Below are positions 34,937 to 40,193 of a stretch of DNA of 52,009 nucleotides, piece after piece. This stretch comes from Rhodohalobacter sulfatireducens. Its GTDB lineage: Bacteria > Bacteroidota > Rhodothermia > Balneolales > Balneolaceae. The position numbers and the translations under genes were made by a program. The stretch lies in contig NZ_JAKLWS010000031.1 in the NCBI RefSeq assembly GCF_022012475.1, positions 1 to 52,009 of the forward strand. The letters run 5' to 3'. The notes beneath the pieces were generated by a model. That model was not told the DNA's origin and made no database searches. It saw nothing but the letters and a program-made list of their open reading frames with translations. How positions within the stretch are numbered: position 1 is the stretch's first letter; every line of letters starts with the position of its first letter.

Positions 34937-34977
34937 AGAAGCCCCTTGTTAAGCAGTGTTAACAGGAGGCTTTTTTT
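34937..34977. terminator. Shared terminator between barrel gene and hom
   Basis: GCCCCTTGTTAA (34941-34952) pairs with TTAACAGGAGGC (34959-34970) with two mismatches, followed by TTTTTTT on the + strand. It ends the barrel gene transcript; the hom stop codon sits right at the T-run. On the minus strand the tail is only partly T-rich, so termination of the met operon here would be weaker. Confidence 0.7.
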
Positions 34978-36055
34978 ATGCGATTGAAAGAACGTCAGCC
35001 AAGATTCCGGCAGCAGTTACCTCTTTGCCCGCACCGGGTCCCTGGATAACCAATGGCTGATCGTAGTATCGTTTAGTCTTGATCTGAACCAGGTTGTTTG
35101 TGTCTTTAAGCTGACCCAAGGTGGAAGATTTTGGAACTTCGCTAATTCCAACATTTATTTTTCCGTCCCTCAACACACCGGTATATCGAAGTGTATTCCC
35201 GGCTTGATCGGCTTTTGAGACCCTTTCACTCCAGTCTTTGTCAAACTTGTAGAGTTCTTCAAGGAATGTGGTTGCATCTACATCTTTCAATTGATCGGGT
35301 ATCAGTGATTCCACTTTAAGATCATCGCGCTCCATTTTGTAACCACAGATTCTGGCGAGAATCAGAAACTTTCGTGCAACATCCTCTCCGGAAAGATCAT
35401 CACGAGGATCGGGTTCGGCATAACCAAGGCTGCGTGCTTTAATCACAGATTTGCTGAAACTATTTCCTTTGTCAAGTTCAGAAAAAAGATAGGTCATGGT
35501 TCCTGAAACAACGCCGCTGATCTCGATGATCTTATCGCCGGTTTGAATCAGGTTCTTGATGGGATTTACAATTGGAAGTCCGGCGCCAACATTAGTTTCA
35601 TAGAGAAATTGCACATTTTTTTCAGCGGCAAGTTCATGCAGGGATTCAAAATCATCCTGACTTTGCGTATTTGCCAGTTTGCTGGGGGTAACAACATGAA
35701 TATTCTCCTTCAGCAATTGTGGATAGATTTTCGTGGTTTCCAGGCTTCCGGTTGCATCTACAAAAATAACTGAACCTTTAGGGTAGGAGGTCAATTTGCT
35801 GGTGATCGACTTCCAATCCTTTTGCGGTGCCTTCAAAAGTTTTTCAAGCGTGTATTCAGTCTGGCTGTGATCGTACCAAAGAACATGCTTTCGATTACAA
35901 ACGCCCAGTACGCGCAGGGATTTCTGAGAACCGTTTTTTGAAATCTGCTTTAAAAGCGTGCTGCCCACCGCCCCCACGCCGGCTATAAAAACTTTCTTCA
36001 CCTGTTTTGCCTGATCCGGTTTGACTTGTTTATATGCTTTCAATTGTGATGACAT
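34976..36055 (-). CDS. hom: Homoserine dehydrogenase
   Basis: The enzyme reduces aspartate semialdehyde to homoserine. A Rossmann start VKKVFIAGVGAVGSTLLKQI is followed by the family signature AEPDPRDDLSGEDVARKFLILAR and the homoserine-binding region with ISGVVSGTMTYLFSEL. At 359 residues it corresponds to the dehydrogenase half of bifunctional ThrA/MetL enzymes, without the aspartokinase and without a C-terminal ACT domain. It lies 2 bp after metX as the last gene of the methionine operon. In this location it most likely feeds homoserine to MetX, and its control by the leader upstream would limit homoserine when sulfur amino acids are plentiful. Confidence 0.94.
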   Translation of the reverse strand: MSSQLKAYKQVKPDQAKQVKKVFIAGVGAVGSTLLKQISKNGSQKSLRVLGVCNRKHVLWYDHSQTEYTLEKLLKAPQKDWKSITSKLTSYPKGSVIFVDATGSLETTKIYPQLLKENIHVVTPSKLANTQSQDDFESLHELAAEKNVQFLYETNVGAGLPIVNPIKNLIQTGDKIIEISGVVSGTMTYLFSELDKGNSFSKSVIKARSLGYAEPDPRDDLSGEDVARKFLILARICGYKMERDDLKVESLIPDQLKDVDATTFLEELYKFDKDWSERVSKADQAGNTLRYTGVLRDGKINVGISEVPKSSTLGQLKDTNNLVQIKTKRYYDQPLVIQGPGAGKEVTAAGILADVLSIA

Positions 36056-36057
36056 AA

Positions 36058-37104
36058 TTAATAGCTCAGTGTCTGTTTTTCTTTAATAAATGGTTTGATA
36101 ATGTCGTTGATCTGTTCAAATTCAATCAGGAATGCATCGTGTCCGTACGACGATTTAATTTCTTTGTATTCTGCATTCTTTAATAATTTTGCCAGCTCTT
36201 TTTGTTCATGAGTTGGATACAAATGGTCGGATTCAATACCAATGACTTTAACAGGTGATTGAATCTGCCCGAGAACTTCTTGAAATGAACCTCGATCCCT
36301 GGATACATCATGCGAATCCATTGCTTCTGTTAAGGTGATGTAGGAATGAGCATCGAACCGGTCGGCCAGCTTTTTGCCCTGGTAATTCAAATATGATTCC
36401 ACCTGGAACTGATCAGAATCTCCCTGGAGTCCGCGGCTGAATTTCTTCTCATAATCAGATGGGGTTCTGTAGGTAATCATCGCCATCATTCGTGCTGCAG
36501 CGAGGCCTTTAGCGGGTCCGTCATTTTTATCGTAATTACCATTATTCCACTTTGGATCGGTAAATATTGCCTGCCTTTGGGCATGGCTGATTCCAATAGC
36601 CCACGGACTGTGAGATTTCCCCATCGCTATAAGTGCTGCGGATTCGATACGATCGTCCATAATAGAAAACTCGAGTGCCTGCATCCCTCCAAGCGAGCCT
36701 CCAAGTACCAGTTCAATTCCGGTTATTCCAAGCTGATCTAACAACTGCTGCTGAAATCGAACCATATCCCGAACTGTAATTTCAGGAAAGGAGCTTTTGT
36801 ACGGTCTGCCGGAATCAGGATTTTCTGACCAAGGACCGACAGACCCGTAAGGACTGCCGGGTACATTAATACACAGAATAAAATTTTTAGCGGGATCGCA
36901 AACCCGGCCCGATCCAAAAATCCCGGGAAACCACTCATCGGCCGCAGCATGGCCCGTTAATGCGTGGCAAATGAGAATCACATTATTTTTCTCTTTATTC
37001 AGTGAACCCCATGTTTTATAGGCTACATCCGGTTCATTAAACCGAAAGCCTGCCTCTGTGATAAAAGGCTTTTTTAATTTCTCTATGGTAATTCCTTCGT
37101 TCAT
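36058..37104 (-). CDS. metX: Homoserine O-acetyltransferase
   Basis: MetX activates homoserine with acetyl-CoA. The alpha/beta hydrolase fold carries the nucleophile in GGSLGGMQALEF, the acid in GIESDHLYPTHEQ and the base in YGHDAFLIE. The oxyanion-region motif HALTGHAAADEW and the LCINVPGSPYGSVGPWSENP loop are typical of the MetX family. The frame extends nine codons to a GTG at 37131, but that GTG lies beside a perfect CCGGTTTTAAACCGG palindrome; I prefer the ATG at 37104. Acetyl versus succinyl specificity cannot be proven by eye; the adjacent metY argues for O-acetylhomoserine. It is coupled to hom with a 2-bp gap. Confidence 0.93.
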   Translation of the reverse strand: MNEGITIEKLKKPFITEAGFRFNEPDVAYKTWGSLNKEKNNVILICHALTGHAAADEWFPGIFGSGRVCDPAKNFILCINVPGSPYGSVGPWSENPDSGRPYKSSFPEITVRDMVRFQQQLLDQLGITGIELVLGGSLGGMQALEFSIMDDRIESAALIAMGKSHSPWAIGISHAQRQAIFTDPKWNNGNYDKNDGPAKGLAAARMMAMITYRTPSDYEKKFSRGLQGDSDQFQVESYLNYQGKKLADRFDAHSYITLTEAMDSHDVSRDRGSFQEVLGQIQSPVKVIGIESDHLYPTHEQKELAKLLKNAEYKEIKSSYGHDAFLIEFEQINDIIKPFIKEKQTLSY

Positions 37105-37158
37105 TTGCTTTTCAATGTTTAATATTCCCACCGGTTTTAAACCGGCAGGAACTTACAC

Positions 37159-37695
37159 TCAAAACTTCTTGAAATCTACCTGACCGTCAATTTTTACAGG
37201 ATTGCTTATGATATCAAGAACCGGGCAACGGTCTACAGAAAGCTTTTCAAGTGTTTTAAGTTTTTCTGTATCAGTTTCATTCGTTTCTATTGTCGTTTTA
37301 TAAGAGACAGATTTAAATCCGGCTCGTTCTTCTGAAAGATTCAGGAAACCATGCAGGTCCAGATCACCGTCCACCTCAACATGTACTGCTTTGATATCGA
37401 TATCCAATACCGTGGCATAAGCTTTAATGACTATTTCCTGGCACGCAGCAAAAGCACCTAATACATATTCAACGGGGTTCGGTCCTTCATTTGTCCCGCC
37501 AAGTTCAACAGGTTCGTCTGAAACAAATTCAAAATTCCTGATTTTTATATTCGACAAAAAACCGTTTTCCAGTGTTGATTTTGCCTTAAATGTGGCATCT
37601 GCCTGTTCAGGATTCTTTTGGATTCCCTGTATTAAATTCAAAAGCGAATTTTTCAGTTTATCGTTGTTAAGATCAATAACTGTTTCTGTACTCAT
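37159..37695 (-). CDS. OsmC family protein
   Basis: A 178-residue cytoplasmic protein with the two conserved OsmC cysteines, Cys85 in AFAACQEI and Cys157 in VDRCPVLDII, in the usual redox-active arrangement. GGTNEGPNPVEYVLGAFAAC is the family signature. OsmC/Ohr proteins reduce organic hydroperoxides; the broader YhfA-like branch has unknown substrates and lacks a demonstrated peroxidase role. This one clusters better with the latter by sequence feel (VSDEPVELGGTNEGPNP). Its place inside a methionine operon hints at a thiol-related function, which is inference. About 100 bp with two hairpins separate it from metY. Confidence 0.9.
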   Translation of the reverse strand: MSTETVIDLNNDKLKNSLLNLIQGIQKNPEQADATFKAKSTLENGFLSNIKIRNFEFVSDEPVELGGTNEGPNPVEYVLGAFAACQEIVIKAYATVLDIDIKAVHVEVDGDLDLHGFLNLSEERAGFKSVSYKTTIETNETDTEKLKTLEKLSVDRCPVLDIISNPVKIDGQVDFKKF

Positions 37696-37802: not shown

Positions 37803-39149
<1,347 letters not shown>

Positions 39150-39264: not shown

Positions 39265-39702
39265 TTATTGATGATCCCTGATTAAAAACTGGTGATCAAC
39301 TTTCATACATCTGTTTTGAATCATTGTGATGTTTTCTTTCTGTGCTCTTTTTACCTGGTCGGGATGGTTACCCGTACCCAGTTGCAGCCAGATAACATTG
39401 GGCTGCAGCTGAATTGATTGATCCACAACCTCAGGAATCCATTCAGGCGGTAAAAATACATTTACAACATCCACTTTTCCCGGGATTGATCGTAAATCCG
39501 GATATGTTGGCTCGCCAAGAATTTCATCTGCATTTGGGTTCACAGGTATAACCTTATACCCGGCATTTTGTAAATATCGGCCTACATACCGGCTGTCTTT
39601 ATGTCGATTTCTGGAAATTCCCACAATTGCAACTGTTTCAATTTTCGTTAATAACTGCTGTATGCGATCTGTTTCTTCTGACAATGCATGATCAGATCGC
39701 AT
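39265..39702 (-). CDS. CoA-binding domain protein
   Basis: A ~145-residue Rossmann-type CoA-binding protein (CoA_binding_2/YccU-like). The glycine motif IETVAIVGISRNRHKDSRYVGRYLQ and GYKVIPVNPNADEILGEPTYPDL are family hallmarks. VVNVFLPPEWIPEVVDQSI, VIWLQLGTGN and the C-terminal RCMKVDH follow; the terminal cysteine-lysine-x-D-H block is conserved in the family. The frame continues to a TTG at 39738, but ATG 39702 gives a family-sized protein. No enzyme activity is established for such stand-alone domains. As the first gene after the SAM riboswitch it shares the control of the methionine genes. Confidence 0.88.
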   Translation of the reverse strand: MRSDHALSEETDRIQQLLTKIETVAIVGISRNRHKDSRYVGRYLQNAGYKVIPVNPNADEILGEPTYPDLRSIPGKVDVVNVFLPPEWIPEVVDQSIQLQPNVIWLQLGTGNHPDQVKRAQKENITMIQNRCMKVDHQFLIRDHQ

Positions 39703-39771
39703 TTTCTTATCGTACCAGTTTGTAAATGTATTTTTCAAAACTTCTTATAGATTCTGTTTCCCGTTGAAAAC

Positions 39772-39830
39772 AAAAAAGCCTCTTCCAAATTTCTGTCCCT
39801 TTTATGGGAAAGATGTTCAGAAGAGGCTTT
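39772..39830 (-). terminator. Expression-platform terminator of the SAM-I riboswitch
   Basis: On the minus strand AAAGCCTCTTC (39830-39820) pairs with GGAAGAGGCTTT and is followed by six T (39777-39772). Inside, CTTTCCC and GGGACAG extend the stem. It lies ~20 nt after the aptamer and ~70 nt before the CoA-binding gene, the expected place for a SAM-dependent off switch. Confidence 0.85.
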
Positions 39831-39850
39831 TATTTACTTGTGCCTTATCG

Positions 39851-39980
39851 TCTTATCTTTCCCAAACTCGATGCAAGATCGAATCGGGCAGGATTTAGCA
39901 CCTGACTTCCGATAATATGAATTATCGAAACGGTTGCTAAGGTTTCACAGGGCCTGTCCCTCCACCTTTCTGGATAAGAA
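39851..39980 (-). ncRNA. SAM-I riboswitch aptamer (S-box)
   Basis: Read on the minus strand the sequence opens with the P1 strand TTCTTATCC, then AGAAAGGTGGAGGGAC and AGGCCCTGTGAAACC. TTAGCAACC, the GGTGCTAAATCCTGCC block and a closing GGGAAAGATAAGA follow. These are the conserved core elements of the SAM-I family in the right order and spacing (about 130 nt). P1 pairs CTTATC with GATAAG. SAM binding normally favours the downstream terminator. It controls the CoA-binding/metY/osmC/metX/hom operon. Confidence 0.95.
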
Positions 39981-40020
39981 TTCAATTTTTTAAAGAACTC
40001 ATCCGCGGTTTGCGGTTATC

Positions 40021-40048
40021 AAAAAAGCCCTGCTGGTATCCAGAGGGC
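40021..40048 (-). terminator. Attenuator terminator upstream of the SAM riboswitch
   Basis: On the minus strand GCCCT-CTGG (40048-40040) pairs with CCAG-C-AGGGC (40036-40027) around an ATA loop, followed by six T (40026-40021). The 5' arm contains CCCTCTG, which is also the exact complement of CAGAGGG at the leader ORF stop codon. The hairpin is thus one of two competing structures. Confidence 0.85.
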
Positions 40049-40088
40049 TTTTCAATATTTTAATGAAAAAAAGATCTGTCCCTCTGCA

Positions 40089-40157
40089 TCACGTGCTACA
40101 ACAACACATACACATTATGCAGAAACAACAAGCAATATTTTCGTTGAATTTTTTCAT
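40089..40157 (-). CDS. Cysteine-rich leader peptide of the methionine operon
   Basis: A 22-codon ORF from an ATG at 40157 to TGA at 40089. Seven of its codons are Cys, concentrated in the stretch ACCFCIMCMCCCST, and two further Met codons lie among them. It begins MKKFNENI. It sits between a promoter and an intrinsic terminator, the arrangement of amino-acid leader peptides. The region coding TTC TGC ATA (segment 1, TCTGCAT) is complementary to ATGCAGA at the stop codon (segment 2). Segment 2 continues as CAGAGGG, complementary to segment 3 in the terminator. With the ribosome stalled on Cys codons, segment 2 is free to pair with segment 3 and block termination. The ATG lies only 6 bp from the -10 element, so the message is probably leaderless. 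Confidence 0.82.
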   Translation of the reverse strand: MKKFNENIACCFCIMCMCCCST

Positions 40158-40163
40158 CGCCAT

Positions 40164-40193
40164 ATAATACAAGAGAAATGTCTATAGTTGCAA
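40164..40193 (-). promoter_or_regulatory. Promoter of the methionine operon leader
   Basis: On the minus strand TTGCAA (40188-40193) and TATTAT (40164-40169) are separated by 18 bp. The predicted start point falls at or within a base or two of the leader ATG (40157). It lies 37 bp beyond the stop of the upstream porin-like gene, which is on the same strand, so some read-through into the leader is also possible. Confidence 0.6.

Follow-up and report, generated by a model that had tools for sequence, protein, structure and literature searches.

A probable cysteine- and methionine-codon attenuator in series with boxA and a SAM-I riboswitch ahead of a methionine operon of Balneolales

We analysed a window of 52,009 nucleotides from Rhodohalobacter sulfatireducens (the window being the whole stretch of DNA under study), in which a methionine operon on the minus strand is preceded by a short cysteine-rich open reading frame, four RNA segments with alternative pairings, an intrinsic terminator, an rRNA-type boxA and a SAM-I riboswitch. 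Judged from sequence comparison and folding models, the leader very probably acts as a ribosome-mediated attenuator that senses the charging of tRNA-Cys, and probably also of tRNA-Met, in series with the SAM-I riboswitch. The open reading frame and its covarying pairings are conserved among relatives, and in genomes with two SAM-I riboswitches the leader is found at the metY operon and not at metH.

Leader, riboswitch and operon in the window

An earlier note on this DNA had described a promoter followed by a 22-codon open reading frame with seven Cys codons, and four segments pairing as 1:2, 2:3 and 3:4 ahead of a run of six T. Both were found on the minus strand between 40193 and 40021, and the parts of the locus are as follows.

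40164-40193, minus strand: sigma-70-like promoter TTGCAA-18-TATTAT (-35 at 40193-40188, 18-nt spacer, -10 at 40169-40164)
40089-40157, minus strand: leader open reading frame MKKFNENIACCFCIMCMCCCST, ending in its stop codon (ATG at 40157, stop codon at 40091-40089, 22 codons)
40117-40123, minus strand: segment 1, TCTGCAT, partner of segment 2
40080-40089, minus strand: segment 2, ATGCAGAGGG, at the leader stop codon, partner of segment 1 or 3
40040-40048, minus strand: segment 3, GCCCTCTGG, partner of segment 2 or 4
40027-40036, minus strand: segment 4, CCAGCAGGGC, partner of segment 3
40021-40053, minus strand: intrinsic terminator 3:4 of the attenuator, with six T ending at 40021
39981-39998, minus strand: rRNA-type boxA GTTCTTTAAAAAATTGAA, a sequence match and predicted Nus site
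39850-39980, minus strand: SAM-I riboswitch aptamer (RF00162, 81.1 bits)
39772-39831, minus strand: SAM-I riboswitch terminator, from folding of the region downstream of the aptamer
39265-39738, minus strand: CoA-binding protein (PF13380), first gene of the operon
37803-39131, minus strand: O-acetylhomoserine sulfhydrylase, metY (PF01053; TIGR01326, 695.8 bits, cut-off 495.1)
37159-37695, minus strand: OsmC-like protein (PF02566)
36058-37131, minus strand: homoserine O-acetyltransferase, metX (PF00561; NF001209, 381.5 bits, cut-off 331)
34976-36055, minus strand: homoserine dehydrogenase, hom (PF00742)

The seven Cys codons of the leader (six TGT and one TGC) are accompanied by two Met codons besides the start, and the -10 box ends 6 nt upstream of the ATG. 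When the leader RNA (40165-40015) was compared with dinucleotide shuffles, a z-score of -3.37 was obtained, 2 of 200 shuffles folding as well. A DNA search of the same genome gave no second copy of the attenuator (next match E 0.18). The SAM-I riboswitch, well above its cut-off of 44.4 bits, is the only RNA in the window that reaches the Rfam gathering score, and a whole-genome search gave no other SAM-I copy. A candidate antiterminator of the riboswitch, read from the sequence, is formed by GGGAAAGAT (39863-39855) and ATCTTTCCC (39814-39806), which are exact complements over 9 nt. The operon then runs in the order CoA-binding protein, metY, OsmC, metX and hom; metX also matches TIGR01392 at 419.1 bits, under the cut-off of 500 for that model. 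The nearest relatives of its first gene carry Balneolaceae titles. The OsmC-like and CoA-binding genes are thus embedded in an operon for methionine.

A strong terminator behind a conserved open reading frame would also be seen if the short transcript ending at 40021 were a small RNA, or the messenger of a small cysteine-rich protein, with the operon transcribed from a promoter of its own. The consensus scan detected no promoter between this terminator and the aptamer, which is a weak test because promoters of the family stray from that consensus, and boxA and the aptamer come immediately after the terminator. The separate-transcript reading moreover leaves the complementarity of segment 2, and its position at the stop codon, without a role, and we regard it as highly improbable.

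Conservation of the leader in Balneolales

Matches to RF00162 were present in 82 of 92 family genomes and in 114 of 128 from the order. The DNA upstream of 104 Balneolaceae and 32 other Balneolales SAM-I loci was scanned by script and for the most part also read by eye. Under a slightly looser motif, 111 of these 136 loci are of the boxA type, and a short open reading frame with at least three Cys codons was found at 89 of the 111. Where the motif was missing, 5 of 25 loci had such a frame, and two or three of the five resemble true leaders. The count of 89 is an underestimate because a window of fixed size, together with the rule of taking the first start, passed over the leaders of L099, L135, L086 and L172. 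At further boxA-type loci (G006, G042, G072, G092, G104 and G105) the leader has two Cys codons together with some Met codons, and no convincing leader was found at the boxA and SAM-I loci of G037, G061, G099 and G102 or at five g19 loci. Among 24 loci from named records, many of them contigs of the same genomes, 15 carry an ATG-started leader with three Cys within ten residues; Rhodohalobacter halophilus (L039) bears both leader and boxA. Against shuffles that keep TG and GT, the Cys count of the single leader reached p≤0.05 at 56 of the 111 boxA-type loci. The Cys count of one leader judged singly is therefore only moderately unusual, and it is the conservation that carries weight. A chance open reading frame was ruled out, since the frame, the position of segment 2 and the pairings are all conserved.

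The short reading frame is enriched in candidate control codons of two kinds. After the start codon, Cys makes up 16.3% and Met 12.6% of the residues in the 89 leaders, which were selected on Cys and not on Met, against 0.5% and 1.5% in eight proteins of the window. Blocks such as MCMCC, CCMSC, CCMPC and CCMRC recur over several families. Comparison across relatives, the check proposed in the earlier note, shows that homologous leaders retain their Cys codons; the richness in Cys stands, and the enrichment of Met codons is added to it.

The excess of Met raises the possibility that methionine is sensed first and cysteine incidentally, the leader being a Met attenuator that backs the SAM switch. 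A ribosome placed at Met codons likewise yields the antiterminator in the models described below (173 of 215 codons), and one leader, that of G121, has five internal Met codons and one Cys. Cys is nevertheless the commoner residue, though in leaders selected on Cys, and metH, the step that makes methionine, has no leader, in keeping with Cys, and not Met, as the signal. We consider the methionine-first reading unlikely and take the leader to sense both Cys and Met, the former being the main signal. The leader of G121 (L160), MKKVMSMSMSMMSCLGG, may represent a shift of specificity to Met.

The high density of Cys would also be compatible with a nascent-chain sensor, in which the peptide itself responds to a metal or to thiol stress and works the same RNA switch under another signal; copper, for instance, is sensed by Cys-rich leader peptides of other systems. 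Among the leaders studied here, however, the Cys and Met codons stay while the peptide sequence and the distances between Cys residues differ greatly, and both TGT (253 codons) and TGC (124 codons) are used for Cys in the leaders. Together with the association of the leader with the metY operon in two-riboswitch genomes, these observations make a nascent-chain sensor quite improbable, and we retain the codon-reading attenuator.

For the analysis of pairing we used 70 Balneolaceae loci with boxA, terminator and open reading frame, and duplex energy was the only criterion by which segment 2 was placed. The other 34 of the 104 Balneolaceae loci were excluded for want of an exact GTTCTTT or of the terminator pattern (22 metH loci, six g19 loci, L021, L072, L080, L085, L086 and L133); in some GTG- or TTG-started leaders (G059, G065, G075, G077 and G078) the ATG rule shortened the reading frame. 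The 5′ start of segment 2 fell between -15 and +2 of the stop codon, a range chosen after inspection of the pairing results, in 69 of the 70 loci, the expectation from shuffles being 13.7. The 2:3 duplex was better than shuffles at p≤0.05 in 64 of the 70 loci. The 1:2 duplex reached this level in 35 and gave p>0.2 in 18, so that 1:2 is the weakest of the three pairings.

The loci were divided into groups A, B and C by terminator sequence, and covariation was counted in group A only, which comprises 30 sequences with CCCTCTGG-type terminators; the extraction rules for its segments mention G070, G072 and G073 by name and fall back on alternative patterns for some further sequences. (Alignment A3 holds 24 of the 28 group C loci, G004, G005, G035 and G074 being omitted.) In group A, 154 of 180 cells are paired in 1:2, 207 of 210 in 2:3 and 225 of 240 in 3:4. 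One position covaries over all four segments, being T or C in segment 1, A or G in segment 2, T or C in segment 3 and A or G in segment 4. At this position G044 carries T, A and T in segments 2, 3 and 4; segment 1 does not follow, and the 1:2 helix appears to be lost in this genome. The key column of 2:3 accordingly shows A-T, G-C and T-A pairs. For each of the three helices none of 1000 shuffles of the partner column paired as well at the key column, a statistic inflated by kinship. Most pairs are invariant, and changes on both sides, counted without a tree, occurred in 3 of the 6 pairs of 1:2, 1 of the 7 of 2:3 and 2 of the 8 of 3:4. Overall, the pairings are kept with compensating changes, the check that the earlier note had proposed, with the reservation already made for 1:2. 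Both sequence and folding make the antiterminator 2:3 and the intrinsic terminator 3:4 mutually exclusive.

The ribosome was then represented in folding models by an assumed footprint from -15 to +14 around a codon, and the RNA was folded only as far as segment 3. With the ribosome at any of the seven Cys codons of the window leader, segment 3 is predicted to pair with segment 2; with the ribosome at the stop codon, segment 3 is free. Of the 70 loci, 67 formed the antiterminator when the ribosome stood on one or another of their Cys codons (227 of 292 codons in all); G003, G011 and G032 formed it at none. With the ribosome at the stop codon, it formed in 2 of the 70. These co-transcriptional models thus reproduce the behaviour put forward in the earlier note, in which stalling at Cys codons favours 2:3 and a ribosome at the stop codon allows 3:4; by geometry and by folding, segment 2 would be covered at the stop and free upon a stall at control codons. 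The general claim of amino-acid attenuation geometry ahead of a methionine operon is likewise supported by conservation, covariation and models. Since 2:3 still forms in 34 of the 70 ribosome-free models, the state without translation would not be uniformly off. When the full-length RNA of the window leader was folded at equilibrium, the terminator won for each ribosome position tried, and therefore the switch would have to be kinetic, as in trp.

The promoter is conserved in its position relative to the leader. A TTG[CA]-type -35 with a -10 ending 6-9 nt before the start codon was found at 50 of 69 family loci (47 of them at 6 or 7 nt; the count omits G051, and the start-codon rule took an inner ATG in at least one locus, G034), as compared with 1 of 340 control positions. 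The strict sigma-70 consensus scan gave a site in 9 of 70 loci and the looser scan for a TTGC-type -35, a pattern chosen after viewing the family sequences, in 55 of 69. Because the -10 box ends so close to the start codon, the leader open reading frame is probably leaderless, transcription starting at or beside its ATG. Judged by eye, the 5′ end is longer in the g3 group and the f5 family.

The relatives of the window locus belong to Balneolaceae, and the device recurs in other families of Balneolales. A Cys-bearing reading frame, a terminator and a segment 2 at -15 to 0 of the stop codon were found together at 23 of the 32 other Balneolales loci (f3, f4, f5 and two genomes of f2), and 21 of the 23 reached p≤0.05. 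G098 could not be parsed by script, and no terminator was returned for G106; by eye, both leaders resemble the rest. Four further f2 genomes (G092, G094, G095 and G096, with loci L162, L151, L154 and L171, respectively) have Cys/Met-rich leaders with no convincing intrinsic terminator behind them. In some of these the start of the reading frame may, by eye, pair just before boxA, which suggests another mode of control. For comparison outside the order, 69 Bacteroidota loci, a part of the matches, were prepared and one (L195) was dropped for its short flank. None of the 68 sampled loci, 19 of them from f19, showed a convincing Cys leader; short reading frames with three Cys in ten residues were present at seven (G168, G171, G184, G186, G195, G203 and G212) and look like chance.

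boxA and the metY operon

An exact GTTCTTT within 60 nt of the aptamer was found at 79 of the 104 Balneolaceae loci and 28 of the 32 other Balneolales loci, as compared with 5 of 619, 0 of 188 and 2 of 408 control windows in Balneolaceae, other Balneolales and the phylum, respectively. GTTCTTT is the boxA-like element of 16S leaders in the order, as in GTTCTTTGAGAATATTGA (G041), GTTCTTTATAATATTGAAAG (G066) and GTTCTTTGACCGATTGAAAAG (G125), so that the element ahead of the riboswitch is in sequence the same as that of the rRNA leaders of the lineage. It is also exact in the 16S leaders of G009 and G092 and was absent in this exact form from those of G023 and G003; G000 and G103 gave no 16S match in this comparison. 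In G000 the extended element has one exact copy, at 39998-39982, and three sites with one mismatch. Ahead of TPP riboswitches, boxA was found at 1 of 29 sampled loci (L312 being skipped).

Outside Balneolales, boxA precedes the SAM-I aptamer at 38 of the 68 sampled loci, in 11 of 26 families, and at 19 of 49 when the heavily sampled f19 is set aside; it was absent in 15 families, each sampled by one to five loci. In these outside genomes boxA often stands just after a TAnnTTTG-like box, as seen by eye, and could possibly be part of a promoter there. At the window locus a promoter role was ruled out by the intervening terminator and by the more than 150 nt that separate boxA from the promoter. 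Pairing of boxA with a downstream strand is also unlikely, the exact complement AAAGAAC being found at 2 of 107 Balneolales motif loci.

Two SAM-I riboswitches occur in each of 22 genomes, which allowed a comparison within single genomes: one copy is located ahead of metH and the other ahead of the metY operon, whose first gene is metY in 18 cases and the CoA-binding gene in 4. These classes rest on short motifs, that of metH being present in 22 of 22; metH of L007 and metY of the window were checked with NCBIfam models, and L128, L139 and L141 were read by eye as carrying the CoA-binding gene. All 22 metY-operon copies have a Cys/Met-rich leader, with at least three Cys in 21 and two in G006, and 21 of the 22 have boxA. 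In contrast, an exact GTTCTTT was found at none of the 22 metH copies, and metH copies such as L007, L012, L002 and L074 are without leader or boxA. Two metH copies have a TTG-started reading frame with three Cys (L089, p 0.04; L077, p 0.07), which we took as chance. By these sequences, the leader goes with the metY operon, and metH lacks it.

The routes to cysteine were surveyed in 14 genomes. A match of at least 360 bits to cystathionine beta-synthase (CBS) was obtained in 12 of the 14, two of them above the curated cut-off; in Balneolaceae it covers mainly the catalytic part. Matches to cysE of 162-173 bits were seen in 7 of the 14, none above the cut-off of 210.65, and no cysE-like match was found in the leader-bearing G003, G009, G023 and G103. 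In these four, homocysteine may therefore be the route to cysteine. Control of metY by cysteine would make sense, because the homocysteine made by metY plausibly feeds cysteine in genomes without a cysE-like match. The 25 cysE, cysK and CBS-like loci scanned yielded no convincing Cys leader; isolated matches at L260, L276 and L281 were taken as chance.

Proposed mechanism and known systems

We propose that RNA polymerase starts at or beside the leader ATG and that a ribosome loads on the 5′ end of the transcript. With Cys-tRNA plentiful, the ribosome would reach the stop codon and cover segment 2, 3:4 would form and transcription would end at 40021. With the tRNA for Cys (or Met) short, the ribosome would stall on Cys or Met codons and segment 2 would capture segment 3 before segment 4 is made, leading to read-through. 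The polymerase would then cross boxA and meet the SAM-I riboswitch, whose terminator is expected to be on at high SAM, and full expression of the operon would require both a shortage of Cys and a low level of SAM. Such a gate fits an enzyme that incorporates sulphide into homocysteine, from which methionine and, via transsulfuration, cysteine are both derived.

In a wider form of this model, to which we give about an even chance, the leader is a relay of three stages, a leaderless Cys/Met attenuator, a boxA that loads Nus factors and the SAM-I riboswitch. Here boxA would help polymerase, shielded from Rho, through the long untranslated riboswitch or tune the riboswitch decision, the boxA-SAM-I pair would be the older arrangement in Bacteroidota into which the attenuator was inserted in Balneolales, and the gate for short Cys and low SAM would act on metY and not on metH.

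The ribosome-mediated attenuators of the trp, his, thr and ilv operons of Proteobacteria have four segments, mutually exclusive 2:3 and 3:4 hairpins and control codons in a short reading frame. The Balneolales leader resembles them in its four segments, exclusive hairpins and control-codon reading frame, with the antiterminator segment at the stop codon; if it reads both Cys and Met, it would be comparable to the thr and ilv leaders, which also use more than one kind of control codon. By sequence and models it thus appears to have the structure of the trp type, allowing for a 1:2 helix that is significant in half of the loci. It differs from them in its use of Cys (and Met), in its probably leaderless start and in its place in series with boxA and SAM-I.

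Cys leaders have been described or predicted in other phyla. Passages of PMC1262725 report actinobacterial Cys leader peptides, those of Mycobacterium without a conserved terminator hairpin; mycobacterial polycysteine short reading frames are leaderless according to the title of Canestrari 2020 (cited in PMC13236596 and PMC9094748), and translation attenuation is the mechanism given for mycobacterial cysteine genes in a portion of PMC13236596. As far as these passages go, the Balneolales device is similar in having a Cys-codon leader upstream of sulphur genes, with a leaderless start as in the mycobacterial case. Unlike the mycobacterial leaders, it has an intrinsic terminator and covarying 2:3 and 3:4 helices. 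The uORFC-8-2 motif upstream of cysS in Rhodobacterales is predicted in part of PMC8632094 to be a ribosome-mediated Cys attenuator with an intrinsic terminator; it differs in its two tandem Cys codons, its target cysS and its alphaproteobacterial hosts, and neither riboswitch nor boxA is mentioned for it in section 24 of that paper. Leader-peptide systems, according to part of a 2010 survey (PMC2965389), had previously been shown only in Proteobacteria and Actinobacteria, to which that survey adds cases in Firmicutes.

Tandem SAM-I/AdoCbl and SAM-I/T-box(Met) leaders are treated in sections of the review PMC9481103, the main text of which does not contain the term leader peptide. The Balneolales leader likewise joins two sensors in one leader with a combined logic, and the T-box(Met) and SAM-I pair also links a tRNA signal to SAM; unlike in the T-box(Met) tandems, the tRNA sensor of Balneolales would be a translated reading frame. 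Part of PMC5725501 describes targets of boxA and Nus factors outside rRNA, among them putative sites that precede genes for Nus factors and other genes. The Balneolales boxA shares the rRNA-type GTTCTTT element and, unlike the sites in that part, is placed after an attenuator and before a riboswitch in the leader of an mRNA. The open-access matches listed describe no Cys attenuator in Bacteroidota and none that stands in series with a SAM riboswitch, and none of them reports a SAM riboswitch preceded by boxA.

If our reading is correct, translation-coupled attenuation with intrinsic terminators and covariation extends to an order of Bacteroidota, and a sensor of tRNA charging and a metabolite riboswitch act in series on one operon. 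The contrast between metY and metH inside the same genomes provides a ready control, and the presence of boxA before SAM-I aptamers allows a direct test of Nus antitermination on metabolic mRNA leaders. At the g19 loci L124, L104, L115, L113 and L117, a short hairpin-like repeat is followed by boxA directly ahead of SAM-I, with no Cys leader. rRNA leaders carry the order boxB-boxA, which this arrangement of repeat and boxA resembles.
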